From positions 1-37,070 of the forward strand of contig SICQ01000003.1 in the NCBI GenBank assembly GCA_009691385.1: a stretch of 37,070 nucleotides of DNA, given 5' to 3'. Source of the stretch: Candidatus Ryanbacteria bacterium (lineage in GTDB: Bacteria > Patescibacteriota > Minisyncoccia > Ryanbacterales > GWA2-47-10b). The notes below the pieces were generated by a model that had not been told where the DNA came from, made no database searches, and saw only the letters and a program-made list of their open reading frames with translations. Both the position numbers and the translations under genes were made by a program. Position 1 is the stretch's first letter. Every line of letters starts with the position of its first letter. Below are positions 11,194 through 30,293 of the stretch, one piece after another.

Positions 11194-11221
11194 ATTGTCC
11201 CATCATTCTACACATTTCTAT

Positions 11222-11277
11222 AAAAAAATAAACCCCGCCCACAATCGCCATGATGGCGATTGTGGGTCTGGGGTTTT
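11222..11277 (-). terminator. Strong terminator after the 11286-11702 gene
   Basis: The minus strand forms a long hairpin from CCCACAATCGCCAT and ATGGCGATTGTGGG, extended by AACCCC/GGGGTT. It ends in TTTATTTTTTTA. It lies directly after the orphan gene stop and isolates it from the tRNA genes. Confidence 0.88.
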
Positions 11278-11285
11278 GACCGCAT

Positions 11286-11702
11286 TTACGCGGCGGTTTC
11301 GGCCGCTCCTCCCGTCTGACGGGAGGTCGTCGCTAGACGACTCCTATGAGCGCGGCGAGCCTGCTCTTGCGCCTCACGCCCAGTCAGCACAGAAAAACCG
11401 AAGTGCTGAGCGAGACGAATTGCCTCAAGACGATTCTTGTTGTGCTCCTCGTAGTTGCTCAGATCCTGTGTGCGCTTGAGGCTAAGCGCCATGATGACGG
11501 TCTTGACCCGCGCGATAGCCTCCGCGCGACCAGTGTAAGCTGAGATGCCAAAAACTTCTTTGAATCTTTCTACCGCGGCAGCCTTATGGGCCGCCTCGCT
11601 GCGGGCACGGTCCTTGCGGGCACGAACCACTTGCAGCAGAAAGATGAAAAGAAATAACACGCAAAAACCGGCAACGACATACGCGAGCATATGCGAGTAC
11701 AT
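11286..11702 (-). CDS. Orphan GC-rich gene: single-span protein with Ala/Arg-rich helical tail
   Basis: The 138-residue protein has one N-terminal membrane span (about residues 5-25, LAYVVAGFCVLFLFIFLLQVV). A positively charged, mostly helical tail follows, rich in Ala and Arg. No family is recognised. The codons are clearly more GC-rich than those of the neighbours. Expression signals are unlike the surrounding genes: TTGACG-17 bp-TATTAT, a 5' UTR with a GAGCTA/TAGCTC stem, a strong AAGGAGGGAGG ribosome site before the ATG, and a private terminator. The last 60 bases of coding sequence hold two tight hairpins (11308-11326 and 11326-11341). It belongs to the same expression class as 15357, 19429 and 25632. 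Confidence 0.7.
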   Translation of the reverse strand: MYSHMLAYVVAGFCVLFLFIFLLQVVRARKDRARSEAAHKAAAVERFKEVFGISAYTGRAEAIARVKTVIMALSLKRTQDLSNYEEHNKNRLEAIRLAQHFGFSVLTGREAQEQARRAHRSRLATTSRQTGGAAETAA

Positions 11703-11757
11703 GGTATACCTCCCTCCTTGGAGTCTGTGAGCTAAAAGAACGAATCTCCTAGCTCAA

Positions 11758-11786
11758 ATAATATCAAATATAGCAGTTTTCGTCAA
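11758..11786 (-). promoter_or_regulatory. Sigma70-like promoter of the 11286-11702 gene
   Basis: The minus strand has TTGACG (11781-11786), a 17-bp spacer and TATTAT (11758-11763). It lies about 55 bp ahead of the start codon, leaving a structured 5' UTR. Confidence 0.75.
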
Positions 11787-11808
11787 GTACCCTGTTGAAA
11801 ACTCCTTG

Positions 11809-11880
11809 TGTCCTCGGCAGGAATCGAACCTGCACCACCTCCTTCGGAGGGAGATATTCTATCCATTGAACTACGAGGAC
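11809..11880 (-). tRNA. tRNA-Arg (anticodon CCG)
   Basis: The minus-strand cloverleaf has acceptor GTCCTCG with CGAGGAC. The anticodon stem-loop is TCTCC-CTCCGAA-GGAGG with anticodon CCG, and the T arm is GCAGG-TTCGATT-CCTGC. CCA is not encoded. It lies 9 bp after the stop of the YkuK-like gene, so it may share its transcript. Confidence 0.94.
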
Positions 11881-11889
11881 ATTACTTTT

Positions 11890-12417
11890 TTAGGTGTGGC
11901 GATCAGCAACTACCGAGGCGCCGTACGAATATGGCTTGATGACGGGCACAAACCCAAATCCCCGCACCATACCAGCAATACTATCAATAAATGACTTGGT
12001 AGGGCCATTGAGACCCATATCAAGGTGTATACAGCGCACCTCAAGGCGATCTTCCCAAAACACCTCGTCGCCAATCACCTCGCGTACCGTACTACGAATC
12101 TCTTGCGCGAGCATGATGGAGAGAAATGCTTCTTTCCATATACGATCGCGGAGCCCATGGAATTCTTGATTGTTGCGTGTCCAAAAATAAATAGCGCCGT
12201 TGCCTACTTTGCGCACGACAATTGCGGTCACAAACGCAGCACTGCCACTCTCGGCAGCCTGTGAATCGCTCCCCACCACAATCTCGTGGGTAGCGAGCCT
12301 GTCGAGTGCGATTTTATCGCGAATGCGTAGCACAACATCGCGAAGGGAGAGTTGCTCCCCTGCATCATTGCGAAATATTCGCTCATTGTTTTTGTCAGAT
12401 AAGGCTTCCTTGGACAT
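11890..12417 (-). CDS. YkuK-like (DUF458) RNase H-fold protein
   Basis: The 175-residue protein matches the YkuK/DUF458 family pattern. EIVVGSDSQAAESGSAAFVTAIVVRK forms the first two strands of an RNase H-like fold with a conserved Asp. The middle region contains LDMGLNGPTKSFIDSIAGMVRGFGF, and the C-terminus SYGASVVADRHT is typical. The family is predicted to be a nuclease, and its substrate has not been settled to my knowledge. The gene overlaps the upstream exonuclease gene by 23 bp, which makes coupled translation and a shared nucleic acid role likely. tRNA-Arg follows 9 bp downstream. Confidence 0.82.
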   Translation of the reverse strand: MSKEALSDKNNERIFRNDAGEQLSLRDVVLRIRDKIALDRLATHEIVVGSDSQAAESGSAAFVTAIVVRKVGNGAIYFWTRNNQEFHGLRDRIWKEAFLSIMLAQEIRSTVREVIGDEVFWEDRLEVRCIHLDMGLNGPTKSFIDSIAGMVRGFGFVPVIKPYSYGASVVADRHT

Positions 12418-12976
12418 ATGGTTCCCTCTCTCGCGGTTTTATATCAGACCACCTGACCGGTATGCGTATACGCCCCCGATCACGCGTGTCGCCTAAGACA
12501 AATCCTCGTTCTTTACCGAACTCGTAGAGGTCTCGGGTAAGCGTAACATCTTTTAGACAATATTCCTTCACCTTGTCTTTTAAGCCATCGCGCCACCACC
12601 AGATCGCATCGAGCCCGTAACCGATTTTCCCCGCGCCCAGCGTCGCTCGCGTGAGGTTATCAAGAGAAAGACGAAAGCCGGCAGATTTCTCAATATCTTC
12701 CATCAAGTCGAGTACATGCAGTTTTTGCAGATCAATACCTACATGCGGCTGCAATACCGGCAAGTCAAAGTGATTGATATTAAACCCTATCAAAAGACCG
12801 GAGTTTTGAAGTAGTGGTTCGAGCTCGCCAAACTCATGCTTTTCGTAGGCATACGCGCGCTTGGTACTATACGCGTAGGTACCTACTACTGTCACGCCGA
12901 GCATCTGCATATTTTGTTTCCCACCAACTTCCTTAAATTCCTTCTCTGTTTCTATATCAAGAACTATCGTTTCCAT
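12395..12976 (-). CDS. DEDD-type 3'-5' exonuclease-like protein (RNase H-like)
   Basis: The 193-residue protein shows the three exonuclease motifs of the DnaQ/RNase-H-like superfamily. Exo I is VLDIETE at residues 4-10, Exo II is GFNINHFDLPVL near 65-76, and Exo III is YCLKDVTLTRDLY near 145. This single-domain form resembles the helicase-linked or stand-alone ribonuclease H-like exonucleases of CPR genomes. Its substrate cannot be told from the sequence. It heads a two-gene unit with the YkuK-like gene (23-bp overlap) and is divergent from the LTD gene at 13043. A weak TACATA box lies 6 nt before its ATG. Confidence 0.85.
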   Translation of the reverse strand: METIVLDIETEKEFKEVGGKQNMQMLGVTVVGTYAYSTKRAYAYEKHEFGELEPLLQNSGLLIGFNINHFDLPVLQPHVGIDLQKLHVLDLMEDIEKSAGFRLSLDNLTRATLGAGKIGYGLDAIWWWRDGLKDKVKEYCLKDVTLTRDLYEFGKERGFVLGDTRDRGRIRIPVRWSDIKPREREPYVQGSLI

Positions 12977-13027
12977 AATGTGTATGTATCTATTTCTATC
13001 ACGCGGGGTGTTCGAGCGTCAAAACGC

Positions 13028-13036
13028 TGATATACT
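13028..13036 (+). promoter_or_regulatory. Extended -10 box of a leaderless promoter for the LTD gene
   Basis: TGATATACT is followed by ATCACT and the ATG at 13043, again with 6-nt spacing. The extended -10 is identical to the one before the 4067-4456 gene. Confidence 0.6.
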
Positions 13037-13042
13037 ATCACT

Positions 13043-13930
13043 ATGAATCAAGACGTGCTCTTGCTTGCCGTGGTGGTTATTGGACTTCTCGCGGTTGCGC
13101 ACTTTACCACGCTCGGCGGAGGCATCGCGGGCGGCGTCATCACACCCCTTAACCCCAAAGCTGAATTTGGCGTGATCCGCATGCAAGAATCTATACTACG
13201 CGGACCACGCGGTAGCACGGGCACCACCCCACCTCCTACCATAACTCTCACACCTCCTCCTGCCGTACCACAAGATATTCTTGCGCGCTCATTTGCACTC
13301 TCAACGCGCAATGCAAAATCACGCAATATCAATGAAGAGTATGTAGAGATAGTTTACGCGCCCACTAAAAATGCCGCGCCGGTTGATATTAGTGATTGGA
13401 TGATTGCTGATAGCAAGGGTGAATCATATAAGCTCGGGGGCATATCGCTCATACCCGGAATCTCTTCCCTCTATAACCAAGATCGCCTTATACTGCGGGG
13501 TTCTGCGCGAATCCATGTTGTTACGGGTCGTAGCCCCTTGGGTGAAAACTTTCGCCTTAATAAATGTGCGCCGTATTTTTCTCAATATAAAACCTTTACT
13601 CCACGCATTTCAGATTCATGCCCCTCGCCTTCACGCGAACCGGGGCAAGATAGCTTGAGTGATACCTGCTACCAATATATAAAAACGATTTCTGCCTGTC
13701 GCATACCTACCAATATCCCATTTTTCCTCGACAATACCTGCCGTGAGTTTATACAAAAAAACGCAAGCTATGATGCCTGCGTAAAAAATCACAAAAGTGA
13801 TACGGATTTTTATGGTGATGAATACTGGGTGTACCTCAATCGCCCCGAACATATCTGGTCAGATATACGCGACTCGGTGATACTCAAAGACGCGCGTGGA
13901 TCAGTCGTCAAAGCTATCTCGTATCAGTAA
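13043..13930 (+). CDS. Exported or membrane-anchored protein with lamin-tail-like (LTD) domain
   Basis: The 295-residue protein starts with a hydrophobic segment (about residues 4-24) that can act as signal or anchor. A Thr/Pro-rich linker follows (TPPPTITLTPPPAVPQ, about 60-77), and then a beta-sandwich resembling the lamin tail domain. Its hallmarks are EEYVEIVYAPTKNAAPVDISDWMIADSKGESYKLGG and the late YWVYLNRPEHIWSDIRDSVILKDARGSVV. The cysteines in the second half (CAPY, DSCP, DTC, SAC, NTC, DAC) could form disulfides outside the cell. LTD domains occur on many exported CPR proteins, but their role is unclear. It converges on the SpoU gene with a 17-bp overlap. Confidence 0.75.
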   Translation: MNQDVLLLAVVVIGLLAVAHFTTLGGGIAGGVITPLNPKAEFGVIRMQESILRGPRGSTGTTPPPTITLTPPPAVPQDILARSFALSTRNAKSRNINEEYVEIVYAPTKNAAPVDISDWMIADSKGESYKLGGISLIPGISSLYNQDRLILRGSARIHVVTGRSPLGENFRLNKCAPYFSQYKTFTPRISDSCPSPSREPGQDSLSDTCYQYIKTISACRIPTNIPFFLDNTCREFIQKNASYDACVKNHKSDTDFYGDEYWVYLNRPEHIWSDIRDSVILKDARGSVVKAISYQ

Positions 13931-14390
13931 GTTTATATACTGCAACGCCAACCGCAACCGACACATTGAGTGATTCTTTTTTGCCACGCATCGGCAGTAC
14001 AATGCTCGCATCGACTTTTTCTAAAAGCGCACCTGATAACCCACGCACTTCATTGCCAGCGATGAGTGCTACCGGAAATTGTGGATAAAACTCTCGATAA
14101 TCTTTCGCGTCATCACTCTGCTCAAGCGCTACGATCGAAAACCCTTCTTTTTTGAGCTTTGTGATCAAACGAGAAATGTCCGCCACACATTCCCACGCAA
14201 CAGAGTTTTCAGCGCCAAGCGCGGTTTTGGCGATCTCCTTGCGTACCCTGCCCATCTCGTCAGTAGGACTCGGTGTATACCCGGTCATATATACTTTTGC
14301 CACACCTGCGCCGTCAGCCGTACGCAATACGGAGCCTACATTGTGTAGGCTCCGTATATTGTGCAGAACTATGACAAGCTCTTCGCGCAT
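13914..14390 (-). CDS. SpoU/TrmH-family RNA 2'-O-methyltransferase
   Basis: The 158-residue SPOUT methyltransferase uses SAM to methylate a ribose 2'-OH. The three motifs are present: NIRSLHNVGSVLRTADG (motif 1, residues 12-28), PVALIAGNEVRGLS (motif 2, near 109-122) and IVLPMRGKKESLNVSVAVGVAVY (motif 3, near 130-152). It has only the catalytic domain, with no N-terminal RNA-binding extension, similar in size to TrmL-type enzymes. Whether it acts on tRNA or rRNA cannot be decided. It begins 2 bp after the SIMPL gene stop. A perfect 14-bp palindrome lies within the codons for motif 1. Confidence 0.9.
   Translation of the reverse strand: MREELVIVLHNIRSLHNVGSVLRTADGAGVAKVYMTGYTPSPTDEMGRVRKEIAKTALGAENSVAWECVADISRLITKLKKEGFSIVALEQSDDAKDYREFYPQFPVALIAGNEVRGLSGALLEKVDASIVLPMRGKKESLNVSVAVGVAVYKLTDTR
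14327..14357. repeat. Perfect 14-bp inverted repeat inside the SpoU motif 1 codons
   Basis: ATACGGAGCCTACA and TGTAGGCTCCGTAT are separated by only 3 nt, giving a 31-nt perfect hairpin. It lies within the first 65 nt of the mRNA coding region, across the conserved NIRSLHNVGS residues. No T-run follows, so it is not a terminator. Confidence 0.85.
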
Positions 14391-14392
14391 GC

Positions 14393-15220
14393 TTACTTGA
14401 TCTCGTAGATGAGCGAGACCGACGCTACAATCTCGTTTTCTCCTGGCTGAATGCTCGGTACGGGTGCGGCCATACTCTTTGTATCGCCACCCAAACCCAT
14501 TTCCCGAGCATAATACATTGGAGGCATGCCACCACCATTCTCAGAAAACCCAGTGAGCTTACCAAGTCGTACACCGAGGTTGCCCGCGAGTACTTTTGCC
14601 TCGGCACGCGCTTTGGTGATAGCCGCCTCACGCGCCTCGGCGCGCAATTTTTCTACTACCTCATCGTCAACCGTAAACTGGAGTTGACCAATCTGGTTTA
14701 CTCCCGCCTCGGTAGCACCTGTAGTGATCTTGCCGATGTCGTCGAGCTTGCGCACTTTGACGGCAATAGTCTCTTCAATGACGAACTTTTTGGTACCTTT
14801 GCGTGGAGGGCAGATGACACTCGCGCCTTCAGTACTTACACATGGACGATAATCATACTCTTCAGACGGATAAATGTTGTATGAAGTCGTCTTGATATCA
14901 CGACTCTCTACGCCATTCTTTTTAAGAAAATCGATGACACTTTGCGATTTTTTCGATGCAGCATCGCGTGCTACCTCCAGTGACGCATTCTCCTCACGAA
15001 TCGTAAACGAGATAAGACCGATATCAGGCTTTACGACACGCTTTTCTTCGGCGGATACTGAGATGGTGCGTGATGGATAATCATTTTGTCGGTAGGTGCT
15101 CTTTGCCGTAACCAACAAAAAGATAGCCAATGCCGCGAGCACGCCGATAATAAGCCATCGCATAAGCCCGCCAGCAGACGAACTGATAGATACTTTGAAC
15201 CCTTCTTTTTCTTGTTCCAT
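14393..15220 (-). CDS. SIMPL-domain (DUF541) membrane-anchored protein
   Basis: The 275-residue protein has a cytoplasmic N-terminus, one membrane span (about residues 16-38) and an extracytoplasmic SIMPL domain. The domain start is typical: TISVSAEEKRVVKPDIGLISFTIREENASLEVARDAASKKSQSVIDFLKKNGVESRDIKTTSYNIYPSEEY. Later parts include KVRKLDDIGKITTGATEAGVNQIGQLQFTVDD. Known relatives form oligomeric envelope proteins linked to stress, but no precise role is established for CPR members. A pair of cysteines (CVSTEGASVIC, near 128-139) may form a disulfide. It is transcribed ahead of the SpoU gene with a 2-bp gap. An AT-rich TAATAA box lies 6 nt before the ATG. Confidence 0.9.
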   Translation of the reverse strand: MEQEKEGFKVSISSSAGGLMRWLIIGVLAALAIFLLVTAKSTYRQNDYPSRTISVSAEEKRVVKPDIGLISFTIREENASLEVARDAASKKSQSVIDFLKKNGVESRDIKTTSYNIYPSEEYDYRPCVSTEGASVICPPRKGTKKFVIEETIAVKVRKLDDIGKITTGATEAGVNQIGQLQFTVDDEVVEKLRAEAREAAITKARAEAKVLAGNLGVRLGKLTGFSENGGGMPPMYYAREMGLGGDTKSMAAPVPSIQPGENEIVASVSLIYEIK

Positions 15221-15296
15221 AAAATATTATTAAATAGTAATCAATAAAGATGACCCTTGTCTCTATTCTAACGGTCTAGGGACGGTTTTGCTACGC

Positions 15297-15325
15297 TTGA
15301 CCGTAAGGCAAAGAATCGGTATCGT
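15297..15325 (+). promoter_or_regulatory. Sigma70-like promoter of the 15357-15527 gene
   Basis: TTGACC (15297-15302), a 17-bp spacer and TATCGT (15320-15325) lie ahead of a 25-30 nt leader that contains AAAGGAGGAC. Confidence 0.55.
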
Positions 15326-15356
15326 AGCTTGGAACTCTCGTACCAAAGGAGGACTC

Positions 15357-15527
15357 GTGGCAAAGAAAAGGGGCGATACGGGTCGCGCGGCGTATTGCTC
15401 GGTTTGCGGCCTCAAACGAAGAGGTCGGCATCGCACGCAAGAAGACTGCCAAAAAGCCATCGAAGCGTATCTCAAGACGCGCCCTCAACGCCAACTCAAG
15501 ACCGATCGAAGAAGGTTTGGGTGGTGA
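15357..15527 (+). CDS. Orphan small basic protein with possible zinc-binding Cys/His cluster
   Basis: I start this gene at GTG 15357, because a strong AAAGGAGGA ribosome site lies just upstream, inside the longer ORF of the track. The product is 56 residues, very basic, and holds CSVCGLKRRGRHRTQEDC, which is a CxxC-x7-H-x5-C pattern that could bind one zinc ion. The rest is a short helix (EDCQKAIEAYLKTRPQRQLK) and an Arg-rich end, so nucleic acid binding is plausible. It has its own 17-bp-spaced promoter and a terminator right after the stop, like the other orphan genes in this window. No family is recognised. Confidence 0.65.
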   Translation: MAKKRGDTGRAAYCSVCGLKRRGRHRTQEDCQKAIEAYLKTRPQRQLKTDRRRFGW

Positions 15528-15554
15528 TCATAAAAACCAAATCTTACACACACG

Positions 15555-15594
15555 CAGCCGTATCCTATCATGGGGTCGGCTGATTTTTTATTTT
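15555..15594 (+). terminator. Terminator after the 15357-15527 gene
   Basis: CAGCCG pairs with CGGCTG, enclosing TCC/GGG, and is followed by ATTTTTTATTTT. The T-run runs into the end of the convergent murE gene. Confidence 0.8.
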
Positions 15595-16852
15595 ATGACT
15601 TATTTATTATATTGCGCGCAATAGCACGATCATCCCACGGGATTTTTTTGCCACCGGCGAGTACCATGAGCGGTTCGAATCCTTTACCGGTGATGATGAT
15701 AGTATCGCCAGCGTTCGCCTTTTGTATCGCTATCTCAATAGCTTTTTTACGATCAAGCTCGATGACCGCTTTGTGCGTAGTAATCCCCTTTGAAACTTCA
15801 TCGGTAATGGTTTTTGGATCTTCGTCATATGGATCTTCATCGGTCAAAATAATCTCATCGCAAAACTGGTCGGCGATCTTGCCTAACTCAGGGCGTTTCC
15901 ATTTGTCACGCCCGCCGCCAGCGGCCCCCAACACGCATACAAGATGCTTTGCTTGCGGCTTAAGTGTTTGATATACCTTTTCGAGTGCGTCGGGTGTATG
16001 CGCATAATCAACCACCACCGCAAACGGTTCGCGTGAGATATATTCAAGACGGCCCGCGACACCGAGTACCTTACCAATACCTTGGCGTATTGATTCGGGC
16101 GGGACATGGTGAGCTGATGCAACCGCAATCGCGCACAAGATGTTTTCAAGATTAAATTCGCCTTCCAGCATTGACTCAAAATATGTCCTTTCAATCATAA
16201 AAGAGACGCCGCGCTCAAACGAAACATCCGTAGGTGATACCGCGTGAAGTGAACTCTCAAGTAGCTTTGCATCTCGTGCGTATTCCCATACCTCTGCGTG
16301 AGGAGCAGCATCAAGAAACATCTTGGCATCGGTCATTGTCGCGTTGACTATAATATGTTTTTTCTTTTTCCACGAATTGTTAAGCGCGCGGAAAATCTTG
16401 AGCTTGGCTTCACGATACTGCTCAAACCCGCCGTGCGACTCGATATGCTCGGGCGTCAGATTAGTGATCGCAACGGTATCAAATGCAATGTGCGCGTGGC
16501 GAAATTGCCGCGCACCTTCACTGGTCGTCTCCAAAATCACCACATCACACCCTGCCGCCTTGGCATCGAATAAAAACTTTTGCACAAAAAAGCGTCCTGG
16601 CATGGTCATTTTTTTATCATTAACCACCTCCTCACTACCGATGCGAAAACGGAGCGATGAGGCTGACGCCGTCTTATGCCCTGCTTCTTCAAAAACATGA
16701 TGTAAAATCTCAACGGTGGTTGATTTGCCATTGGTACCCGTCACGCCAATAACCGTAAGCTTGCGTGATGGAAACTGATACCAGAGAGCGGCGGTGAGCG
16801 CCATGCACCAGTGATATACCAGCATGATAGGTTGAGGAATAAGTTTTCTCAT
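15593..16852 (-). CDS. murE: MurE-type Mur ligase lacking the N-terminal UDP-binding domain
   Basis: MurE-type ligases add the third amino acid to UDP-MurNAc-dipeptide using ATP. The P-loop GVTGTNGKST sits at about residues 35-44, whereas classical MurE has it near residue 110; domain 1, which holds the UDP, is missing and replaced by a short hydrophobic lead. The central domain keeps NLTPEHIESHGGFEQYREAKLKIF. The C-terminal domain keeps VVDYAHTPDALEKVYQTLK and GAAGGGRDKWKRPELG. The substrate-choosing DNPR/DNPA motif reads DEDPYDEDP, so the amino acid used cannot be predicted. It overlaps ruvA by 4 bp. The family call is good, but the precise substrate is uncertain. Confidence 0.85.
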   Translation of the reverse strand: MRKLIPQPIMLVYHWCMALTAALWYQFPSRKLTVIGVTGTNGKSTTVEILHHVFEEAGHKTASASSLRFRIGSEEVVNDKKMTMPGRFFVQKFLFDAKAAGCDVVILETTSEGARQFRHAHIAFDTVAITNLTPEHIESHGGFEQYREAKLKIFRALNNSWKKKKHIIVNATMTDAKMFLDAAPHAEVWEYARDAKLLESSLHAVSPTDVSFERGVSFMIERTYFESMLEGEFNLENILCAIAVASAHHVPPESIRQGIGKVLGVAGRLEYISREPFAVVVDYAHTPDALEKVYQTLKPQAKHLVCVLGAAGGGRDKWKRPELGKIADQFCDEIILTDEDPYDEDPKTITDEVSKGITTHKAVIELDRKKAIEIAIQKANAGDTIIITGKGFEPLMVLAGGKKIPWDDRAIARNIINKS

Positions 16853-17424
16853 GACTTATGTCTACCTAACATCTTGAGCGCCTCCTTGATCTTGCCATCA
16901 ATGCTTTCGATATCGCGAGGCAACTTGTGGAGCGTGTCTCTCGCTTCGCGCACATTGTAACCAAGCGATACGAGTGCATCGAGCGCGTCAGATTCTTCCG
17001 ATGAAATAGTGACACCGTCTGCGCCGCCAAGTTTGTCTTTGAGCTCGAGCATTATTTTCTCAGCCGTCTTCCTGCCAATACCTGATATTTTTGTTAGATA
17101 CACTGTCTCGCCTGACGCGATAGCGCGCCGGAGCGAATCGAGGGGCGCTACTGAAAGTATGCCGAGGGCAGATCGCGGACCAATACCGGAGATACCAATA
17201 AGCATTTCAAACATCTCAAGCTCTGACATGGTAGCAAAACCGTAGAGTTCGAGTGCTGTCTCACGCACCGCAAGATGTGTAAAAAGCTCGACGGGCTCGC
17301 CTTTTTTGGGCAGTGTCTTTGCCGTCTCGAGTGAGACTGATACTTTGTAGCCAACACCACCTACATTGATGATGAGGTGCTTGGTACCACGAAACGCAAG
17401 AATGCCGGAGAGGTATGCTATCAT
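16849..17424 (-). CDS. ruvA: Holliday junction DNA helicase subunit RuvA
   Basis: RuvA binds four-way junctions and loads RuvB for branch migration. The N-terminal OB fold starts MIAYLSGILAFRGTKHLIINVGGVGYKV. Two helix-hairpin-helix motifs follow around FEMLIGISGIGPRSALGILS and LTKISGIGRKTAEKIMLELKDKL, and the small C-terminal RuvB-binding domain is DALDALVSLGYNVREARDTLHKLP. I prefer ATG 17424 over 17433 because MIAYLSG is the usual N-terminus. A TTGTGA-17-TACGAT promoter also ends 7 nt before it. It is coupled to murE by a 4-bp overlap and faces uvrB head to head. ruvB and ruvC lie at 30294-33049. Confidence 0.95.
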   Translation of the reverse strand: MIAYLSGILAFRGTKHLIINVGGVGYKVSVSLETAKTLPKKGEPVELFTHLAVRETALELYGFATMSELEMFEMLIGISGIGPRSALGILSVAPLDSLRRAIASGETVYLTKISGIGRKTAEKIMLELKDKLGGADGVTISSEESDALDALVSLGYNVREARDTLHKLPRDIESIDGKIKEALKMLGRHKS

Positions 17425-17431
17425 TGCTTTC

Positions 17432-17460
17432 ATCGTATGTCATTTCGTCTTGTCTCACAA
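17432..17460 (-). promoter_or_regulatory. Candidate ruvA promoter embedded in the uvrB coding start
   Basis: On the minus strand TTGTGA (17455-17460), a 17-bp spacer and TACGAT (17432-17437) end 7 nt before ATG 17424. The whole promoter overlaps the first codons of uvrB on the other strand. Confidence 0.5.
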
Positions 17461-19383: not shown

Positions 19384-19389
19384 TTATAA

Positions 19390-19421
19390 ATAAAAATGGA
19401 GCCGTTCTGCTGAATGGCTCC
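19390..19421 (-). terminator. Terminator after the 19429-19653 gene
   Basis: The stem GGAGCCGTTC/GAATGGCTCC has a 4-nt loop and is followed on the minus strand by ATTTTTATTTA. It also lies just after the uvrB stop, but the T-run is on the minus-strand side. Confidence 0.85.
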
Positions 19422-19428
19422 TAGTCTT

Positions 19429-19653
19429 CTACGCCTGCGCCCTGAGTTGTGGAGTTTGCCTCTCAGCATCATGTCTGCGAAACTCTGCGTTCATACGATT
19501 GAGAGTTGCGTTCAACTCCTTGAGCTCTGAGGCAAAACCTTCTGCGACAAAACCCGCCTTGTTGTCTCCGAACTGCATTGTTCGTAGCGCCAACAGTGCC
19601 GTGACGCGCGCACGAAGCGCTTTGCGCCTTTCGGTCTTCTCGGTCGATTCCAT
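19429..19653 (-). CDS. Orphan small helical protein
   Basis: The 74-residue, highly charged protein is predicted to be mostly alpha-helical. Heptad-like stretches (FASELKELNATLNRMNAEFRRH) suggest a short coiled coil, and it has a basic N-terminal half, KTERRKALRARV. No signal peptide or span is present and no family is recognised. It is transcribed alone from a TTGCGT-17-TAATCT promoter, with a strong GGGAGGGTGG ribosome site and a private terminator. These signals match the other orphan genes at 11286, 15357 and 25632. It sits between uvrB and rpsT and faces uvrB's end. Confidence 0.65.
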   Translation of the reverse strand: MESTEKTERRKALRARVTALLALRTMQFGDNKAGFVAEGFASELKELNATLNRMNAEFRRHDAERQTPQLRAQA

Positions 19654-19685
19654 ACCACCCTCCCGATTGGAACTCGTTTAGAAAA

Positions 19686-19714
19686 AGATTACCGACAAAC
19701 GGCAAAATACGCAA
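19686..19714 (-). promoter_or_regulatory. Candidate promoter of the 19429-19653 gene
   Basis: The minus strand has TTGCGT (19709-19714), a 17-bp spacer and TAATCT (19686-19691), about 32 bp before the start codon. Confidence 0.5.
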
Positions 19715-19738
19715 GAGACTACATCCTTTCATAAAATA

Positions 19739-19767
19739 TTGACGGACAAGGAGAAAACAGGTACTCT
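19739..19767 (+). promoter_or_regulatory. Promoter of rpsT, leaderless
   Basis: TTGACG (19739-19744), a 17-bp spacer and TACTCT (19762-19767) end 7 nt before the rpsT ATG. This is one of the clearest leaderless promoters here, because both hexamers are good. Confidence 0.7.
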
Positions 19768-19774
19768 AGAACCC

Positions 19775-20038
19775 ATGCCAAACACTGCATCAGCAACCAA
19801 GGCTCTACGCCAATCAGAGCGCCGTCGTGTACTCAATGTACGCCGCAAGCGCTCGCTTCGTGATGTCCTCAAAGGGTTTGAGAAGGCCATCCTTACCAAA
19901 AATAAGGCTGAGGCCATTAAGCTCTTGCCCGCCGTGCAAAAGGCGCTCGATAAGACCGCGAAGTCAGGCCTCATCAAGAAAAACAACGCCGCGCGGAGAA
20001 AATCGCGCCTTGCCGCACAAATTAAAAAACTCGCCTAA
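19775..20038 (+). CDS. rpsT: Small ribosomal subunit protein S20
   Basis: S20 is a helical primary-binding protein of the 30S subunit that contacts 16S rRNA. The 87-residue product MPNTASATKALRQSERRRVLNVRRKRSLRDVLKGFEKAI has normal family length and the very basic composition expected. It ends with the conserved IKKNNAARRKSRLAAQIKKLA. I use ATG 19775; the ORF track start at 19739 falls in the -35 box. The gene converges on holA with a 4-bp overlap, and its terminator hairpin lies within the holA coding sequence. Confidence 0.96.
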   Translation: MPNTASATKALRQSERRRVLNVRRKRSLRDVLKGFEKAILTKNKAEAIKLLPAVQKALDKTAKSGLIKKNNAARRKSRLAAQIKKLA

Positions 20039-20913
20039 CGAGTAGGGGTGAGTAAAAACTGAAGAAACCTTGTCTCCAAGGTTTCTTTTTTTCTCATATC
20101 GCTCATCTCAATCAAATCAAGATATGCCCCTTCAATCTGTCCGCGTGAAAAATTACGCATCTGTGTCTTTGCCTTACCAAGCACAAAAGGCTTTACGCCT
20201 GCCGTATTGCCCGATGCCACTCGCGCAAGATTTTTGATATGCCACAAAAAGGGGCGTAGTACATCGTCTGGTTTAAAACCTGCGCTCATAAACCGCTCAA
20301 ACAACAATGCCGCGCGCACCCTCTCCCCCGATCCCCATAGGTCGCCTAACGAGAACAAATCATTGTTCGTAGGCGCCGGAGCTTCGTGCTGATGCGACTC
20401 TCCTCCCAACAATACTTTTTCGAGCTCTCGGGCGAATCTCTCGGGTGTATTAGTATACAAAAACCAAAGTGATTCTTTGGTAGGAGGACTGACTGTAGCA
20501 TCTACTTCTTTTGCCGCCGCATCGATGTATGCTGAAAATTTTTGACGGGTAAAATCAGTAAACTCCTCTTTTTTGTTCGCATATTTTTCAATATCACTAA
20601 AAATCTTATTTTTGGTTGGCGTCCCCTCCTCCCAAAATACGACGACTGAATCATCCTGGGCCCACCGTTCAAGATGAGACTTGAGCGCGTCACGCATATC
20701 GGCGTCCAAATCTGATGCGCGCTTGATGATATAAAAATCTTTTGAACCAAAGAGTGACCCTGAACCAATCTGTGAAAGACGCTCGCCCCGTGCCTCATCA
20801 TCGCAATCGATCATCTCCCACGCGGGTCCGGCCTCACGGCGAAAGCGTACGGCAAAACGCTCCAACATCTGACGCGATGCGGTAGTATTCGATCCGTACA
20901 ACAGATAGATCAT
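20035..20913 (-). CDS. holA: DNA polymerase III delta subunit
   Basis: HolA is the clamp-loader subunit that opens the DnaN sliding clamp. The 292-residue protein starts MIYLLYGSNTTASRQMLERF. The N-terminal AAA-like domain includes GSGSLFGSKDFYIIKRASDL and VVVFWEEGTPTKNKIFSDIEKYA. The family-typical late region is ERFARELEKVLLGG and FSLGDLWGSGERVRAALLFERFMSAGFKPDDVLRPFLWHIKNL. It is shorter than the 330-345 residues common elsewhere. A start overlap of 4 bp couples it to the response regulator upstream, and the end overlaps rpsT. The holA-rpsT neighbourhood is common in bacteria, which supports the call. Confidence 0.92.
   Translation of the reverse strand: MIYLLYGSNTTASRQMLERFAVRFRREAGPAWEMIDCDDEARGERLSQIGSGSLFGSKDFYIIKRASDLDADMRDALKSHLERWAQDDSVVVFWEEGTPTKNKIFSDIEKYANKKEEFTDFTRQKFSAYIDAAAKEVDATVSPPTKESLWFLYTNTPERFARELEKVLLGGESHQHEAPAPTNNDLFSLGDLWGSGERVRAALLFERFMSAGFKPDDVLRPFLWHIKNLARVASGNTAGVKPFVLGKAKTQMRNFSRGQIEGAYLDLIEMSDMRKKETLETRFLQFLLTPTR
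20064..20092 (+). terminator. rpsT terminator located inside the holA coding end
   Basis: GAAACCTTG-TCTC-CAAGGTTTC is a perfect 9-bp stem followed by seven or more T residues, 25 bp after the rpsT stop. On the other strand the same bases encode KETLETRF near the HolA C-terminus. Confidence 0.85.
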
Positions 20914-21290
20914 TTTCCTATGTAGTTTGCCTCGAGTACTTTTTTGATCGTCTCTACGATTTCCTGTGGAGTATGATGCGCCTTGATCATAAACTCTGCA
21001 GCGCCCAATTTCATCGCTTGGTCTACATCATCACGAGAACCGAGGTTTGAGATTATAATAATGGGAATTGATGCGTAGTCATGCTGCGCTTTGAGCTCAG
21101 TGAGAATCTCGAAACCACCTTTGCCCGGCAATATTAAATCAAGCAAGATGATGTGTGGCGGATTTTTGTGAACTGCGGCAAATGCTTCGTCCGCATTGAT
21201 GGCTTCGGTGACGGTAAATCCTTCGTGTTTAATCTTTTCTACTAATAGCCCACGTAAAAACTTATCATCTTCAACGACGAGTATTTTCAT
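20910..21290 (-). CDS. Single-domain (CheY-like) response regulator
   Basis: The 126-residue receiver domain starts MKILVVEDDKFLRGLLVEKI. It has the acidic pocket (EDD), the phospho-accepting Asp in IILLDLILPGKGG, the Ser in IIIISNLGS and the conserved Lys in FMIKAHH. There is no output domain, so it must act by protein contact. I prefer ATG 21290, the usual family start; ATG 21344 would add 18 residues unlike receiver domains, and neither has a clear ribosome site. It follows the histidine kinase and overlaps holA by 4 bp, so the pair sits between polA and holA. Confidence 0.9.
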   Translation of the reverse strand: MKILVVEDDKFLRGLLVEKIKHEGFTVTEAINADEAFAAVHKNPPHIILLDLILPGKGGFEILTELKAQHDYASIPIIIISNLGSRDDVDQAMKLGAAEFMIKAHHTPQEIVETIKKVLEANYIGK

Positions 21291-21361
21291 TTCATTTCGT
21301 TTGAGCATTGACGCGATTGGCATCGATGAGTCGTCTGTTGTCATAGGGCTAGACTAGCATA

Positions 21362-22516
21362 CTAGAGTGCAGCCACAAAGGGTTCGGTAGGTGGATTGAC
21401 GGGACTCTTGAGTGTTGAGGCGCGCGGGATACGGATAAGAAAAGTCGTCCCCTTACCTTCTTCCGAATGAAACGAAATCTCGCCACCGTGCGCGGTAATA
21501 ATATTTTTTGTAATAAAAAGGCCGAGCCCCGTGCCTTCCGTCTCCATATGCATGACATTGGAACCGCGATAAAAGCGGGTAAACATACGCGGCTGATCTT
21601 CTTTGGAAATGCCGATGCCGGTATCGCTAATCTTGAGAACAACAGACACGCTATCGGCCTCGAGTCGTACTGATACCGTACCGCCCGCCGCTGTATAACG
21701 AATAGCATTTTCGGTAATATTGCCAATGGCGATAGAAAGACGATCAGGATCAGCGTTGAGGATGATAGGGTCGTCTGACACTTTGCCGAGCGTGAGTGTG
21801 ATATTTTTTGCTTTTGCTAAAATCATCTTTTCATCGACAATCTTTTTGGTAAATATGATGATATCAATCTCTTCAAATTTGTAACCAAACTTTCCCTCTT
21901 CGATGCGAGCGGCATCCAACAAATTATGCACGAGTCGTATCATTGATTCATTGGCGATCGTACCCTTCTCAACCGCTTCGCGCTGATTTTTGGTTATCTT
22001 ACCAAAATCACCGTCTTTAATCCCTTGATATACCCACTTTTGGATCGAGAGCGGCGTACGAAGCTGGTGTGCGGCGATTGAGATAAACTCTGATTTGAGT
22101 TTTGAAATTTCTTCTTGGCGATCTTTTGCTTCTTGAATGCGTTCTGCCATTTCATTAAAAAAAGTGCCGAGTACACCAACCTCATCTTTACGCGAGACAG
22201 TGATGTGTACCTTAAAGTTCCCTGCACCAATTCGTTTGACCGCTTCGGTCAGCACCGACAGAGGCCGTGTGATATACCGCGTAACCATAATAGCGGCAAA
22301 CGAAGCGATAATAAAGACAAAAAGAAAGATGAGTATAAATTGTATACTAATAGTCTCGATAAGAGCGGTGGCATCCCTCGGGGCTAGTACTGCGCGAATA
22401 CGCGACTGGTAGGTAGCGACAAAAAAGAGTGATGCGATCCCCATAGGGAAAATACCGAGCGCGAGCAGGGTAAGAAAAAATCTAAAGAACAGTGAATGCC
22501 GAATCTTTGGATTCAT
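21362..22516 (-). CDS. Membrane sensor histidine kinase with HAMP domain
   Basis: The 384-residue kinase has two membrane spans (about residues 11-33 and 55-77) with only about 20 residues between them. It therefore has almost no external sensor domain and may sense the membrane itself or an internal signal. A HAMP linker follows (RYITRPLSVLTEAVKRIGAGNF...DEVGVLGTFFNEMAERI), then the H-box FISIAAHQLRTPLS with the phospho-accepting His near 150, the N-box ENAIRYT, the G1 box DTGIGI, the F-box FTRFYRG and the G2 box GTGLGLFI. It lies 21 bp after polA and ahead of a receiver-only regulator, its likely partner. Confidence 0.93.
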   Translation of the reverse strand: MNPKIRHSLFFRFFLTLLALGIFPMGIASLFFVATYQSRIRAVLAPRDATALIETISIQFILIFLFVFIIASFAAIMVTRYITRPLSVLTEAVKRIGAGNFKVHITVSRKDEVGVLGTFFNEMAERIQEAKDRQEEISKLKSEFISIAAHQLRTPLSIQKWVYQGIKDGDFGKITKNQREAVEKGTIANESMIRLVHNLLDAARIEEGKFGYKFEEIDIIIFTKKIVDEKMILAKAKNITLTLGKVSDDPIILNADPDRLSIAIGNITENAIRYTAAGGTVSVRLEADSVSVVLKISDTGIGISKEDQPRMFTRFYRGSNVMHMETEGTGLGLFITKNIITAHGGEISFHSEEGKGTTFLIRIPRASTLKSPVNPPTEPFVAAL

Positions 22517-22537
22517 ACAAGTATCTTTAGTATATCC

Positions 22538-25078
22538 TTAAAAGACCATTGAGGTCATCTCCTGCCAGTTTGCACCTCGCTTCACCTCAGCGATGATTGG
22601 TACTGAAAACTCTGGCACCCGCTCCATGATCGCCTTGATCGTACTTACGGTCTCGGCGATTTTTTCTTTTTTAATTTCAAATACAAGTTCGTCGTGCACC
22701 TGCAGCAGCATGCGCACATCATGGTTATCGCGCGAAAGCTTGAGCTCATGCGCGATATCAATCATCGCGCGCTTTACAATATCGGCAGCGGTTCCTTGTA
22801 CGGGCGCGTTGACCGCCATGCGCTCGGATTCTTTGCGTATATATTCAAATGATGAACGGAGGTTGGGTAAAAACCGCTTGCGGCCAAAAAATGTTTTGAC
22901 ATATCCTTTCTCTCTTCCCTCATGTATCGTACGCTCGCGGTATTCTTCAATACCTGGAAACTCTTGCAAATAGTTATCGAGCGCCGCCTCAGCTTCCGCG
23001 ACAGTCATGTGACCTGTCTCGGCGAGTGAGCGTGCACCCATGCCATACAAAATACCAAAGTTAACCGTCTTGGCGCGTCTACGCATCTCACTTGTTACCT
23101 CACCTGTCGCCACATGAAAAATCTCTGATGCGGTACGGGTATGGATGTCTTCACTAGTTTGAAAGGCGTGCGTGAGTTTTTTATCGCCTGAAAGTTGTGC
23201 TGCAATTCTGAGCTCGAGTTGAGAATAGTCAAACGCAAGAAGCTCATATCCCTTGGGTGCGACGAACGCGCGACGGATGCTACGACCAAGCTCTGATTTT
23301 ATCGGAATGTTTTGAAGATTAGGGTTTGACGATGAAAGACGCCCTGTGGCCGCCCCTGTCTCATTAAATGTCGTATGCACCCGACCATCGGACCCGATGA
23401 GCTTTGGAAGTGCCGTAATATAGGTAGAAAGCAATTTTGAAATCTCGCGATATCTAATCAACATATCAATGATCGGGTGGAGTTCACGCAATTTTATGAG
23501 CTCTGAGAATTGCGTTGATACCGCCTTGGTAGAAGTTTTGCGAATACCCTTGGTAGATAATCCGAGTTTTTCAAAAAGTATTACCGAGAGTTGTTTTGGC
23601 GAGTTGATATCAAACTCTTCTCCCGCCGCCTTCCAAATATCAGCTTCGAGTACATGCTCTTCATGCTCCGCCTCTTTTGATAGTTTTGCGAGTACCGCAG
23701 TATCGAGCGTGATGCCCGCCTCCTCCATCTCAAATAAAATCGCCACGAGCGGCAATTCAAAATCAAAATATATGGGTGCGAGATCCTCTTTCTCTATTTT
23801 CTTTTTGAGAGTATCTGCGAGGCGCACAACCTCGGCGATAGTTAACGGTTTACCTTCGAGCAAATCGCCGAGCGACAATCCGCGCTCATCGGGATTGAGT
23901 ATCCACGCGCCAAGCTTTGTATCAAATGACACCGGAAAGCTCGCGCCCAAAAATGTCATGAGCGCGTGTGCGTCGTGCACGATTACTTCTTTTGAATCGC
24001 CCAAAAGCGCCAAAAGTACCGCGCGTTGCGCCTGCGGCACACTATATGTATTTGCATCAACACCGAGTATCAACCCATCTTCACCAAAGAAAAGCGCCGC
24101 GCGCGCGCCTGCCTCTACACTGTCATCGAGCTCCTTGTGCACCACTATTGGCTTTTCTTCTTCTTTCTTTGGTGGGGCGCCAGCATCTTGCAAACGCGAG
24201 ATAAGACTGGGGAAATGAAACTTGCGAAAAATCTTTGATACTTCTTCGATAGGAATACTCGCAAATGCCATACTACCCAAATCCGCTTCCACCGGCGCGT
24301 CTCGGCGAATTGTTGCGAGTTCTTTTGAAAAGAGTGCGTCTTCTTCACCTTCGATTAGCAATTTTTTGATGCGATCCTTGAGAAATGCTGGTGATTTTTT
24401 CTCTTTTTTAAGTTTTATATACATCTCTTCGATCGAACCGTAGTGTTTAATCAGATCGGTAGCACTCTTCTCGCCAATCCCCTTGATGCCGATAATGTTA
24501 TCGGATGGATCGCCTTTCAAGCCCTTATAGTCAGCAATGAGTGTAGGACCAAAACCAAATCGTTCGAGCACCTTCTCTTCGTCATACAATATCGTATCTT
24601 CGATGCCTTTGCGGAGCGTGTAGACCATCACGCGCTTATCGTCGATGAGCTGCATCGTATCCATATCACCCGACGCGATGATGATGGTCAAATCTTTTTC
24701 TTTTTTGAATTTCTCGACGAGCGTGCCCAAAATATCATCTGCCTCAAAACCGGGTGCCTCGAGTATCGGTATGCCAAACGCACGAAATACTTCTTTTACT
24801 TTATCGAACTGTGGGATGAGATCGCTCTTGGTCTCGGATCTCGTCGCCTTATAATTTTCATACACAATATGCCGAAAAGTAGGCTCCTCTCTATCAAACG
24901 CGGCGACGATGTGTGTAGGGCGCAGATCGCGAATCAATTTTAACAGCACCGCTGACACACCGTAGACAGCGCCAAGTGGCTCACCGGACGGTGACGCAAA
25001 TGACGGCAACGCGTGAAATGACCGGTGGATGAGCGCGTGCGCATCGAGGATGACTAATTTTTTTAGTTCACGCGCCAT
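22538..25078 (-). CDS. polA: DNA polymerase I, proofreading site degenerate
   Basis: The 846-residue enzyme fills gaps and removes RNA primers. The 5'-3' exonuclease domain (about residues 1-290) shows LVILDAHALIHRSFHALP, AFDREEPTFRH and GIKGIGEKSATDLI. The middle domain lacks the DxE and other acidic motifs of an active 3'-5' exonuclease (it reads ALFFGEDGLILGVDANTY), so proofreading is probably lost, as in Taq. The polymerase domain is intact: DYSQLELRIAA (motif A), RRRAKTVNFGILYGMG (motif B) and QVHDELVFEI (motif C). It overlaps tsaE by 11 bp and precedes the kinase-regulator pair and holA in one run. Confidence 0.97.
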   Translation of the reverse strand: MARELKKLVILDAHALIHRSFHALPSFASPSGEPLGAVYGVSAVLLKLIRDLRPTHIVAAFDREEPTFRHIVYENYKATRSETKSDLIPQFDKVKEVFRAFGIPILEAPGFEADDILGTLVEKFKKEKDLTIIIASGDMDTMQLIDDKRVMVYTLRKGIEDTILYDEEKVLERFGFGPTLIADYKGLKGDPSDNIIGIKGIGEKSATDLIKHYGSIEEMYIKLKKEKKSPAFLKDRIKKLLIEGEEDALFSKELATIRRDAPVEADLGSMAFASIPIEEVSKIFRKFHFPSLISRLQDAGAPPKKEEEKPIVVHKELDDSVEAGARAALFFGEDGLILGVDANTYSVPQAQRAVLLALLGDSKEVIVHDAHALMTFLGASFPVSFDTKLGAWILNPDERGLSLGDLLEGKPLTIAEVVRLADTLKKKIEKEDLAPIYFDFELPLVAILFEMEEAGITLDTAVLAKLSKEAEHEEHVLEADIWKAAGEEFDINSPKQLSVILFEKLGLSTKGIRKTSTKAVSTQFSELIKLRELHPIIDMLIRYREISKLLSTYITALPKLIGSDGRVHTTFNETGAATGRLSSSNPNLQNIPIKSELGRSIRRAFVAPKGYELLAFDYSQLELRIAAQLSGDKKLTHAFQTSEDIHTRTASEIFHVATGEVTSEMRRRAKTVNFGILYGMGARSLAETGHMTVAEAEAALDNYLQEFPGIEEYRERTIHEGREKGYVKTFFGRKRFLPNLRSSFEYIRKESERMAVNAPVQGTAADIVKRAMIDIAHELKLSRDNHDVRMLLQVHDELVFEIKKEKIAETVSTIKAIMERVPEFSVPIIAEVKRGANWQEMTSMVF

Positions 25079-25526
25079 GTCTAAATCTCACCATGCGTTC
25101 AGCGCGCGCGATATGTCTAAACGAGATCCAAACGGTATCTTTGGGAAATATTTTTTTGGCGCGCTCCGCCCACTCGACGACCACGATATTTTTTGGATCT
25201 AAAATAATTTTTTTAAAGGCGATTGCGTCGAGCTCGCGTGGCGACTTGATACGATATAAATCAAAATGCCATACATTTTTAAATGTAGAACCTTTGAGTG
25301 CGTAGCGTTTTGCTATCACGAAAGTTGGCGACTGAAGTCGCCCGCGCACGCCAAGGCCGTTCGCGACACTCTGCGTAAAAAAAGTTTTACCTGCACCAAG
25401 CTCGCCCGAAAGCGCGAGGCAAAGGGCGTATTTTTTATTTCTGGCAACTGTCTTAATCTGGGCGCCAAAGAGTTTGCCGAGCGCGCGTGTCGCCTCGGGA
25501 GTTTTGAGTGCATAGGTAAGCTCCAT
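25068..25526 (-). CDS. tsaE: tRNA threonylcarbamoyladenosine biosynthesis ATPase TsaE
   Basis: TsaE is the small P-loop ATPase that cycles the TsaB-TsaD complex during t6A synthesis. The 152-residue protein has Walker A SGELGAGKTFFTQSVANGLGV, the switch-like SPTFVIAKRY, HFDLYRI near residue 96 and the Walker B-like VVVEWAER. Length and order are normal for the family. A GGAGG ribosome site lies just before the ATG at 25526, unusual for this window. It opens the run tsaE-polA-kinase-regulator-holA and overlaps polA by 11 bp. tsaD is found separately at 6286-7350. Confidence 0.95.
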   Translation of the reverse strand: MELTYALKTPEATRALGKLFGAQIKTVARNKKYALCLALSGELGAGKTFFTQSVANGLGVRGRLQSPTFVIAKRYALKGSTFKNVWHFDLYRIKSPRELDAIAFKKIILDPKNIVVVEWAERAKKIFPKDTVWISFRHIARAERMVRFRHGA

Positions 25527-25555
25527 CGTGCCTCCAGCGTAGCAATCTTATGCTG

Positions 25556-25596
25556 AAAAGCAAAAACGACCGTTCCCATGATTGGGTTCGGTCGTT
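25556..25596 (-). terminator. Terminator downstream of the 25632-26138 gene
   Basis: On the minus strand AACGACCG and CGGTCGTT pair around CCC/GGG and are followed by TTTTTGCTTTT. It separates the orphan gene from tsaE. Confidence 0.85.
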
Positions 25597-25604
25597 CTCG
25601 GTTG

Positions 25605-25627
25605 GGAGCCCCGTATGACGGGGCTCC
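25605..25627 (-). terminator. Second perfect hairpin right after the 25632-26138 stop
   Basis: GGAGCCCCGT-ATG-ACGGGGCTCC is a perfect 10-bp stem with a 3-nt loop, 4 bp after the stop codon. It lacks a T-run, so it may protect the mRNA 3' end rather than terminate; the true terminator follows at 25556-25596. Confidence 0.6.
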
Positions 25628-25631
25628 ATGT

Positions 25632-26138
25632 TTATTCATCTTCTGACTCGACATCCTCCTCGCGGATACCGGCTGCCGGCTCGACGGTGCGTCCGCTGTT
25701 GCGGATCGCCTCATCGTAGGTGGCGCGATACTCGTCAGACTCGGTCGCATCTGCGACAGCAGACTTGCCGTCGTAGCGACCGTCTGCGCGCCCCTTGGCA
25801 CGATGACAGGCAATGTCATCATCAGCACAGCTGGTGTCCACCAACTTGGTACGGCCAAAGACAAGGCCGAGACTGAAATTGACGATCCCGAGTGGAACAT
25901 CGATCAGCCCTGGCTCGCGCTCGACCCGAATGTTTGGGTCTCTACGCTGGACCACGATCACGCGATCATGGTGACGGTAACCGCCGTTGTAGCGATTGCC
26001 ACCACCGTTCCAGCGACTGCTGTGCGAACGGCCTCCGCGCTCCCAGCACATGTTGCCGTAGGTGCAGCGGGCTTCCGCTGCAATCGGTGCGATGAGCGTC
26101 ACCATCAGAAGAATCAAGATTGAAAGAACAGTCTTCAT
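25632..26138 (-). CDS. Orphan secreted protein, GC-rich, unknown function
   Basis: I start at ATG 26138, because GGAGG lies 5 nt upstream; the longer ORF start at 26150 is inside that ribosome site. The 168-residue product begins with a signal peptide, MKTVLSILILLMVTLIAPIAAEA. Next comes a Gly/Arg/Asn/His/Ser-rich region (about residues 32-58), then a hydrophobic stretch, GLIDVPLGIVNFSLGLVFG, and an acidic tail ending EEDVESEDE. Four cysteines could form two disulfides. No family is recognised. The promoter is consensus (TTGACA-17-TATAAT), the 5' UTR folds, and two hairpins follow the stop. High expression of an envelope or exported protein is likely. Its GC content is higher than its neighbours. 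Confidence 0.7.
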   Translation of the reverse strand: MKTVLSILILLMVTLIAPIAAEARCTYGNMCWERGGRSHSSRWNGGGNRYNGGYRHHDRVIVVQRRDPNIRVEREPGLIDVPLGIVNFSLGLVFGRTKLVDTSCADDDIACHRAKGRADGRYDGKSAVADATESDEYRATYDEAIRNSGRTVEPAAGIREEDVESEDE

Positions 26139-26154
26139 CGTAACCTCCATATCT

Positions 26155-26177
26155 CAGCCGAGACGCCATGCCTCGGC
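26155..26177 (-). promoter_or_regulatory. 5' UTR hairpin upstream of the 25632-26138 gene
   Basis: AGCCGAG and CTCGGCT form a 7-bp stem around a 9-nt loop in the leader, between the promoter and the GGAGG site. It could stabilise the mRNA. No regulatory ligand is suggested by the sequence. Confidence 0.5.
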
Positions 26178-26199
26178 TAGCAGTTCAGTGTACATGGCT

Positions 26200-26228
26200 A
26201 TTATACTACCAAAAATACCTTTTGTCAA
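26200..26228 (-). promoter_or_regulatory. Consensus sigma70 promoter of the 25632-26138 gene
   Basis: The minus strand has perfect TTGACA (26223-26228), a 17-bp spacer and perfect TATAAT (26200-26205). This is the best promoter match in the window. Confidence 0.9.
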
Positions 26229-29163: not shown

Positions 29164-29196
29164 CTTTCTCGCAAGAATCTCCAGACAATGTGCCCA
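29164..29196. repeat. 33-bp direct repeat, left copy
   Basis: CTTTCTCGCAAGAATCTCCA and the following 13 bases are identical to 30028-30060. The two copies bracket the transposase cassette. A partial inverted copy lies at 30217-30246. Confidence 0.85.
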
Positions 29197-29203
29197 TGCG
29201 CAT

Positions 29204-29240
29204 AAATGAAATGGACGTCCGACATCCATTCATTTCATTT
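29204..29240. repeat. REP-like palindrome left of the transposase
   Basis: AAATGAAATGGACGTC and its near-complement surround a CGAC centre, giving a long imperfect hairpin. It ends 2 bp before the transposase stop codon. It shares the ATGGACGTCnGACrTCCAT core with the palindrome at 29902-29922. Confidence 0.8.
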
Positions 29241-29242
29241 AT

Positions 29243-29884: not shown

Positions 29885-29901
29885 GTCTTACATTGTACCA
29901 A

Positions 29902-29922
29902 AATGGACGTCGGACGTCCATT
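29902..29922. repeat. REP-like palindrome right of the transposase
   Basis: AATGGACGTC-G-GACGTCCATT is a perfect 10-bp inverted repeat with a single-base centre, 17 bp upstream of the transposase start. It shares its core with 29204-29240. Confidence 0.85.
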
Positions 29923-30027
29923 ACATTACATAAAAAACAAAAATGCCCGCAGGATGTTCCGTGCGAGCCTTGAGTGAGAAAATGCGGACTCACCCCTTCG
30001 GGCTACCGTTAAAGAGTCACTTATTCA

Positions 30028-30060
30028 CTTTCTCGCAAGAATCTCCAGACAATGTGCCCA
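30028..30060. repeat. 33-bp direct repeat, right copy
   Basis: This is identical to 29164-29196. It also forms the left arm of the fold-back element that ends near 30247. Confidence 0.85.
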
Positions 30061-30247: not shown

Positions 30248-30282
30248 CTCTTCTGAAGAACAATGACCACTATTATAGCTAA
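30154..30282 (+). CDS. Possible 42-codon ORF inside the fold-back region
   Basis: The reading frame [42 protein letters not shown] is too short for the ORF track and ends 11 bp before ruvB. A TAGAAT box lies 11 nt upstream. The part NCLEIFRRK is encoded by the inverted copy of the 33-bp repeat, whose other copies would read HCLEILARK on the minus strand. It may be a real small protein, the remains of a larger gene, or chance. No family is recognised. Confidence 0.25.
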
Positions 30283-30293
30283 AATATAGCCAC

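Follow-up and report, generated by a model that had tools for sequence, protein, structure and literature searches.

Phage moron genes and single-gene cassettes consist of a single gene with its own sigma70 promoter and terminator and a deviating GC content. Mixtures of leaderless and Shine-Dalgarno (SD) initiation within one genome are known from mycobacteria, Deinococcus-Thermus and haloarchaea such as Haloferax (PMC3986360; surveyed in PMC5397173), and SD-scarce bacteria such as the Flavobacteriia have no conserved CCUCC (PMC10783764, PMC6107228). These papers on anti-SD loss do not mention Patescibacteria or CPR (PMC10783764) or Parcubacteria (PMC6107228), and within the literature searched we found nothing on point concerning SD or leaderless initiation in Patescibacteria, Parcubacteria or CPR. 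As in the mixed systems, both kinds of gene occur in the genome described here and a -10 box adjoins the start codon; unlike in those systems, SD use is confined to a small minority and goes with GC3-rich, stand-alone and lineage-restricted genes, in a Patescibacteria-type genome whose anti-SD is altered. A changed anti-SD and few SD genes are shared with the SD-scarce bacteria, but here SD genes persist as a conserved set. The four genes at the centre of this analysis, A-D, resemble phage morons in being single genes with their own sigma70 promoter and terminator and a deviating GC content, but they are chromosomal, syntenic and vertically kept, with no phage context or phage relatives found.

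The window, by which we mean the whole stretch of 37,070 nucleotides analysed, is contig C28 of a 633,616-base genome in 46 contigs that is 85% complete (G000); the nearest named matches of its thymidylate synthase (ThyA) are from Colwellbacteria and Wolfebacteria, which points to a Patescibacteria-type lineage of ultra-small bacteria. It was compared with a sister species (G001), with a second sister in the same genus (G002; three genomes of the genus were compared) and with a genome from another family of the same order (G005). The features of the four genes are as follows.

11286-11702, minus strand: gene A, 138 aa, hydrophobic N-terminus followed by a charged region; homologues in G001 (68% identical) and G002 (43%).
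11758-11786, minus strand: promoter of A, TTGACG-17-TATTAT; identical hexamers in G001, TTGACG-17-TACTAT in G002.
11709-11719, minus strand: SD of A, AAGGAGGGAGG (AAGGAGG); AAGGAGG also in G001 and G002.
11221-11276, minus strand: terminator of A, 12-bp stem and T run; compared in three species.
15357-15527, plus strand: gene B, 56 aa, with a C-x2-C-x7-H-x5-C pattern; the G001 copy has 91 aa and is 73% identical across the aligned part.
15297-15325, plus strand: promoter of B, TTGACC-17-TATCGT; identical hexamers in G001.
15346-15352, plus strand: SD of B, AAGGAGG; AAAGGAG in G001.
15555-15594, plus strand: terminator of B, CAGCCG/CGGCTG stem; G001 has a counterpart in the same place, past its longer ORF, with a longer stem (AGCCGTACC/GGTACGGCT) and a T run.
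19429-19653, minus strand: gene C, 74 aa, soluble, of no recognised family; 77% identical in G001 over 64 aligned residues.
19686-19714, minus strand: promoter of C, TTGCGT-17-TAATCT, the weakest of the four; TTGCCT-17-TAGTCT in G001.
19659-19663, minus strand: SD of C, GGAGG within GGGAGG; GTGGAGGGG in G001.
19391-19421, minus strand: terminator of C, GGAGCC/GGCTCC stem; compared with G001, letters of the stem differ on both sides.
25632-26138, minus strand: gene D, 168 aa, signal-peptide-like N-terminus and conserved C-terminal Cys/Arg/Gly motif; relatives in G001, G002 and G005.
26200-26228, minus strand: promoter of D, TTGACA-17-TATAAT; consensus hexamers and spacing identical in G001, G002 and G005.
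26144-26148, minus strand: SD of D, GGAGG; AGGAG in G001, GGAAGG in G002, AAGGAAGG in G005.
26157-26177, minus strand: 5'-UTR hairpin of D, 8 pairs; found in three species.
25605-25627, minus strand: hairpin directly after the stop codon of D; G001 has a hairpin of different letters there.
25562-25595, minus strand: terminator of D, the second of the two hairpins, with a T run; identical in sequence in G001, while in G002 one pair of the stem differs on both sides.

These ORFs, promoters, SDs and terminators all lie where the original prediction had placed them, with 17-bp spacing throughout and one fully consensus promoter (that of D), and the UTR lengths it gave fit -10-to-start distances of 31-61 nt. 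Its GC-rich codons are likewise borne out (GC 0.55-0.59 and GC3 0.56-0.65, against a window GC of 0.47), as is the absence of recognisable homology: A-D have no match above cut-off in Pfam or NCBIfam, none in PHROG, and only chance-like matches in a PDB sequence search. Relatives of A, B and C among 111 genomes are confined to the genus, save for two marginal matches (E 0.004-0.007), and a scan of the genome collection with D as sole query returned no relative. By the look of their sequences A would be membrane-anchored and D secreted, and the Cys/His pattern of B would possibly bind zinc.

On the earlier suggestion to check conservation in sister genomes, A-D are all kept in G001, syntenic and with the same order and neighbours, and every gene has its 17-bp promoter, SD and terminator at the same positions there; A and D are also present in G002, each with promoter, SD and terminator. 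The SDs of A-D lie 4-12 nt before the start and are conserved between species. Spacing is 17 bp in 11/11 promoter instances (four in G000, four in G001, two in G002, one in G005). Promoter-like matches in 18 kb number 31 where 23.7 are expected, which is weak evidence by itself; it is conservation, not promoter matches, that provides strong evidence for the signals. The terminator stem of A is 100% paired in three species with 6 of its 12 pairs changed on both sides, a result equalled in 1 of 500 shuffles; two pairs of the 5'-UTR hairpin of D are also changed on both sides, but 119 of 500 shuffles equal that. In G005 the relative of D carries a hairpin unrelated to this one in the leader, after the promoter and before the SD, and a terminator is present. 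Synonymous divergence (dS) of A-D between G000 and G001 is 0.68-1.37, and omega is 0.31, 0.17, 0.22 and 0.16 respectively, compared with 0.01-0.10 in twelve neighbouring genes, consistent with purifying selection on all four; these values argue that A-D are real, fast-evolving, lineage-restricted proteins. One further GGAGG in the window, ahead of a gene at 25068-25526 that is TsaE-like by position and sequence, was considered as an SD and rejected: its counterpart is GGGGG in G001 and GTAGG in G002, and since it is not conserved it looks like chance.

Genome-wide counts were made on 295 kb of G000 (~47% of the genome) and 213 kb of G001, using a home-made gene caller in which an SD and a leaderless-type -10 box receive an equal start bonus. 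An SD was counted from at least 5 nt, and the complement motif served as control (a reversed motif with the same GGAGG core scores too, as expected). SDs precede 22 of 36 GC3-rich genes in G000 and 11 of 223 others (p=9e-15), with no link to GC3 for the control (1/37 vs 11/223); some of these 22 genes may be false ORFs. The same association appears in G001 (15/32 vs 7/144, p=2e-8), where the high-GC3 set comes partly from one contiguous recombinase-bearing stretch, and in G005 (10/31 vs 10/222, p=1e-5), and is not significant in G002 (2/12 vs 10/172, p=0.18). A scan of all 4-mers placed GGAG at the top in G000, G001 and G005, while a strict AAGGAG genome pattern matched only A and B and is too strict for counting the class. 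The stretch in G001 (the first 18 kb of contig C2) is itself GC3-rich and encodes two large serine recombinases, suggesting a mobile element or island.

A search of the genome for further genes of this type, as had been proposed, thus recovers 22 leadered SD genes with raised GC3 in 295 kb, extrapolating to about 50 in G000. The second expression class that had been predicted appears to exist, with A-D among its members; because such genes are found throughout the genome and include ordinary enzymes, A-D are not an isolated set, and special coordination of the four finds no support. Members include ThyA, a HIT protein, dCMP deaminase, a cytidylyltransferase and an M23 peptidase. Class genes are more often monocistronic (16 of 22 high-GC3 SD genes vs 60 of 210 others), shorter (median 141 aa vs 279 aa), less often matched in Pfam (7/24 vs 16/20) and, among matched genes, less similar to the sister species (median identity ~66-71% vs 89-90%). 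An N-terminal hydrophobic segment occurs in 10 of 22 SD genes and 75 of 210 others (p=0.36); as this enrichment is not significant, the proposal of envelope proteins finds no support as a trait of the class. Promoters scoring at least 9/12 were found at 8 of 23 genes in the wider class against 4 when shuffled, a modest excess obtained with a detector that requires A at -10 position 2 and that missed a conserved TTGACA-17/18-TTTACT. One locus (L019:674-3905) is a GC3-rich SD cluster of ThyA, a DHFR-like ORF, the HIT protein, dCMP deaminase and cytidylyltransferase.

The background from which this class stands out is of another kind. In G000, -10 boxes peak 6-7 nt before start codons, and a leaderless-type box 5-10 nt before the start is found at 75 of 219 low-GC3 genes and 4 of 40 high-GC3 genes; the remaining ~2/3 of low-GC3 genes are operon-internal or have no assigned start type. 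The view that housekeeping genes are leaderless or coupled therefore seems to hold as a tendency, short of a strict rule, and of the signals thought to be unseen in them the SD likewise contrasts as a tendency, while spacing and terminators are not exclusive: 16-18 bp spacers predominate at leaderless-type genes too, and terminators also occur outside the SD class.

We consider it probable that A-D are stand-alone, leadered SD genes belonging to a minority class in a genome where leaderless or coupled genes prevail. Each would comprise a sigma70 promoter, a leader of 25-55 nt carrying an SD, a single short ORF and a terminator of its own, whereas most other genes would either begin without a leader, their -10 box lying a few bases ahead of the start codon, or depend on operon coupling. 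We infer that one RNA polymerase-sigma70 serves both kinds and that the position of the transcription start differs: at SD genes transcription would begin upstream, and the 30S subunit would be recruited through the altered 16S tail, UUUUCUCCUA, with which the SDs of A-D have computed pairing energies of -6.5 to -10.3 kcal/mol. This layout would allow a gene to be expressed on its own and make the leader available for control. The class appears enriched for fast-evolving genes restricted to the lineage, and a plausible reason is that such genes sit singly between operons. The signals, their conservation and the class-wide association are read directly from the DNA; where transcription starts, whether SD pairing is used, what the proteins do and any control are deduced from it.

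The anti-SD itself has changed. In G000, G002 and G004 the 16S tail is GGAUUUUCUCCUA instead of GGAUCACCUCCUUA, so that the core CCUCCU becomes UCUCCU and CUCCU is kept in G000, and in G005 the tail is GGAUCAUAUCCUA, with core AUAUCCU. Among 27 readable tails from the class (16S 3' ends L045-L048 and L174-L199), 10 have CCUCC, 5 have CUCCU only and 12 are without CUCC, so that change or loss of the anti-SD core has occurred more than once in the class. SD counts relative to control are 23/5, 9/1, 8/2 and 8/0 in four genomes with CUCC-only tails, and small (2/1, 1/0, 1/0, 2/2) in four without CUCC; G005 likewise has an excess of SDs over control. That the SD excess tracks the state of the tail is a lead rather than a result, as the samples range from 23 to 295 kb and differ in GC, and the excess is small also in two CCUCC genomes (G021 2/1; G047 6/4 at 6 nt).

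These tails bear on whether the SD leaders are remnants, their GGAGG present by descent or for another role and pairing no longer used. The altered cores in G000, G002, G004 and G005 and the 12 of 27 relatives without CUCC would fit that account, as would the computed preference of the SDs for the canonical over the native tail. We nevertheless regard it as very unlikely, given that the SDs, unlike the chance GGAGG at 25068, are retained from species to species, that pairing with the native tail still reaches the energies given above, and that the SD excess is found in the four CUCC-only genomes and is small in the four without CUCC. Dedicated regulation is also highly improbable as the reason for the shared signals. 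The common 17-bp spacing and strong SDs could mark A-D as a regulon co-expressed under its own regulator, and the 5'-UTR hairpin of D would suit one, but 17 bp is the sigma70 optimum, in the range that prevails at leaderless-type genes; a motif from the 5' UTR of A is present at A only in the sampled G000 DNA; and no shared operator was noticed among A-D by inspection short of a systematic motif search. Nothing links the four beyond generic sigma70 signals, and the proposal that they are regulated or expressed together finds no support.

The common donor that had been envisaged is disfavoured as well. Raised GC3, a private promoter and terminator like those of phage morons, the scarcity of known families and a match of one class gene (L026:3469) to DUF397, which we take to be an actinobacterial family, are what genes recently imported from a single GC-rich source (phage, plasmid or host bacterium) would show if donor signals and codons were retained. 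Recently acquired genes would be absent from the sister site and have a relative in the donor, but A-D are syntenic in G001 despite long divergence, the anatomy of D extends to another family (G005), and searches of viral contigs gave no relatives of A-D, and those of phage records none of D. In G002 the homologues of A and D have roughly average GC3 (0.44 and 0.51) yet retain promoter and SD, and an SD gene on contig C10 of G000 with GC3 0.72 has a G002 homologue at 0.41 that retains the SD; the leadered type thus stays with the gene while composition shifts, and this counts against explaining it by a recent GC-rich donor. The nearest matches of ThyA, a class member, are again Colwellbacteria and Wolfebacteria, both Wolfebacteria having an SD. 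We judge the donor account unlikely. Visual inspection shows a TTGACA-TTTACT promoter at the C10 gene that is conserved, and in all three members of the genus (L204-L206) its 5' UTR contains a hairpin followed by TTTTGTGTTT, a terminator-like element and possible attenuator.

Returning to the minority class of leadered SD genes, a broader reading is tentative, and we hold it to be less probable than not: the order may split initiation between core genes, leaderless or coupled, and mainly stand-alone lineage-specific genes that use SDs. The altered anti-SD would then be maintained only for as long as a genome has such genes, and its loss would have recurred within the class. If true, SD initiation, near-universal in textbooks, would be a specialised tool of a gene minority here, the leader would offer a sequence mark for lineage-specific genes in Patescibacteria-type genomes, and the tails would be a natural series in which to study why the anti-SD is retained or lost.

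Elsewhere in the window, a probable structured RNA closed by a long stem (30034-30248, plus strand; fold z-score -5.2) lies upstream of ruvB (30294-31298), and a search of it against Rfam up to E=1 gave a sole, chance-like miRNA match on the other strand. The interval 30028-31457, which takes in ruvB as well, shares 96% identity with G001. A Y1/IS200-like transposase gene (29243-29884, minus strand) lies within an insertion at ~29165-30062 that is absent from G001, is flanked by a direct repeat of ~30 bases and has inverted repeats near its ends.
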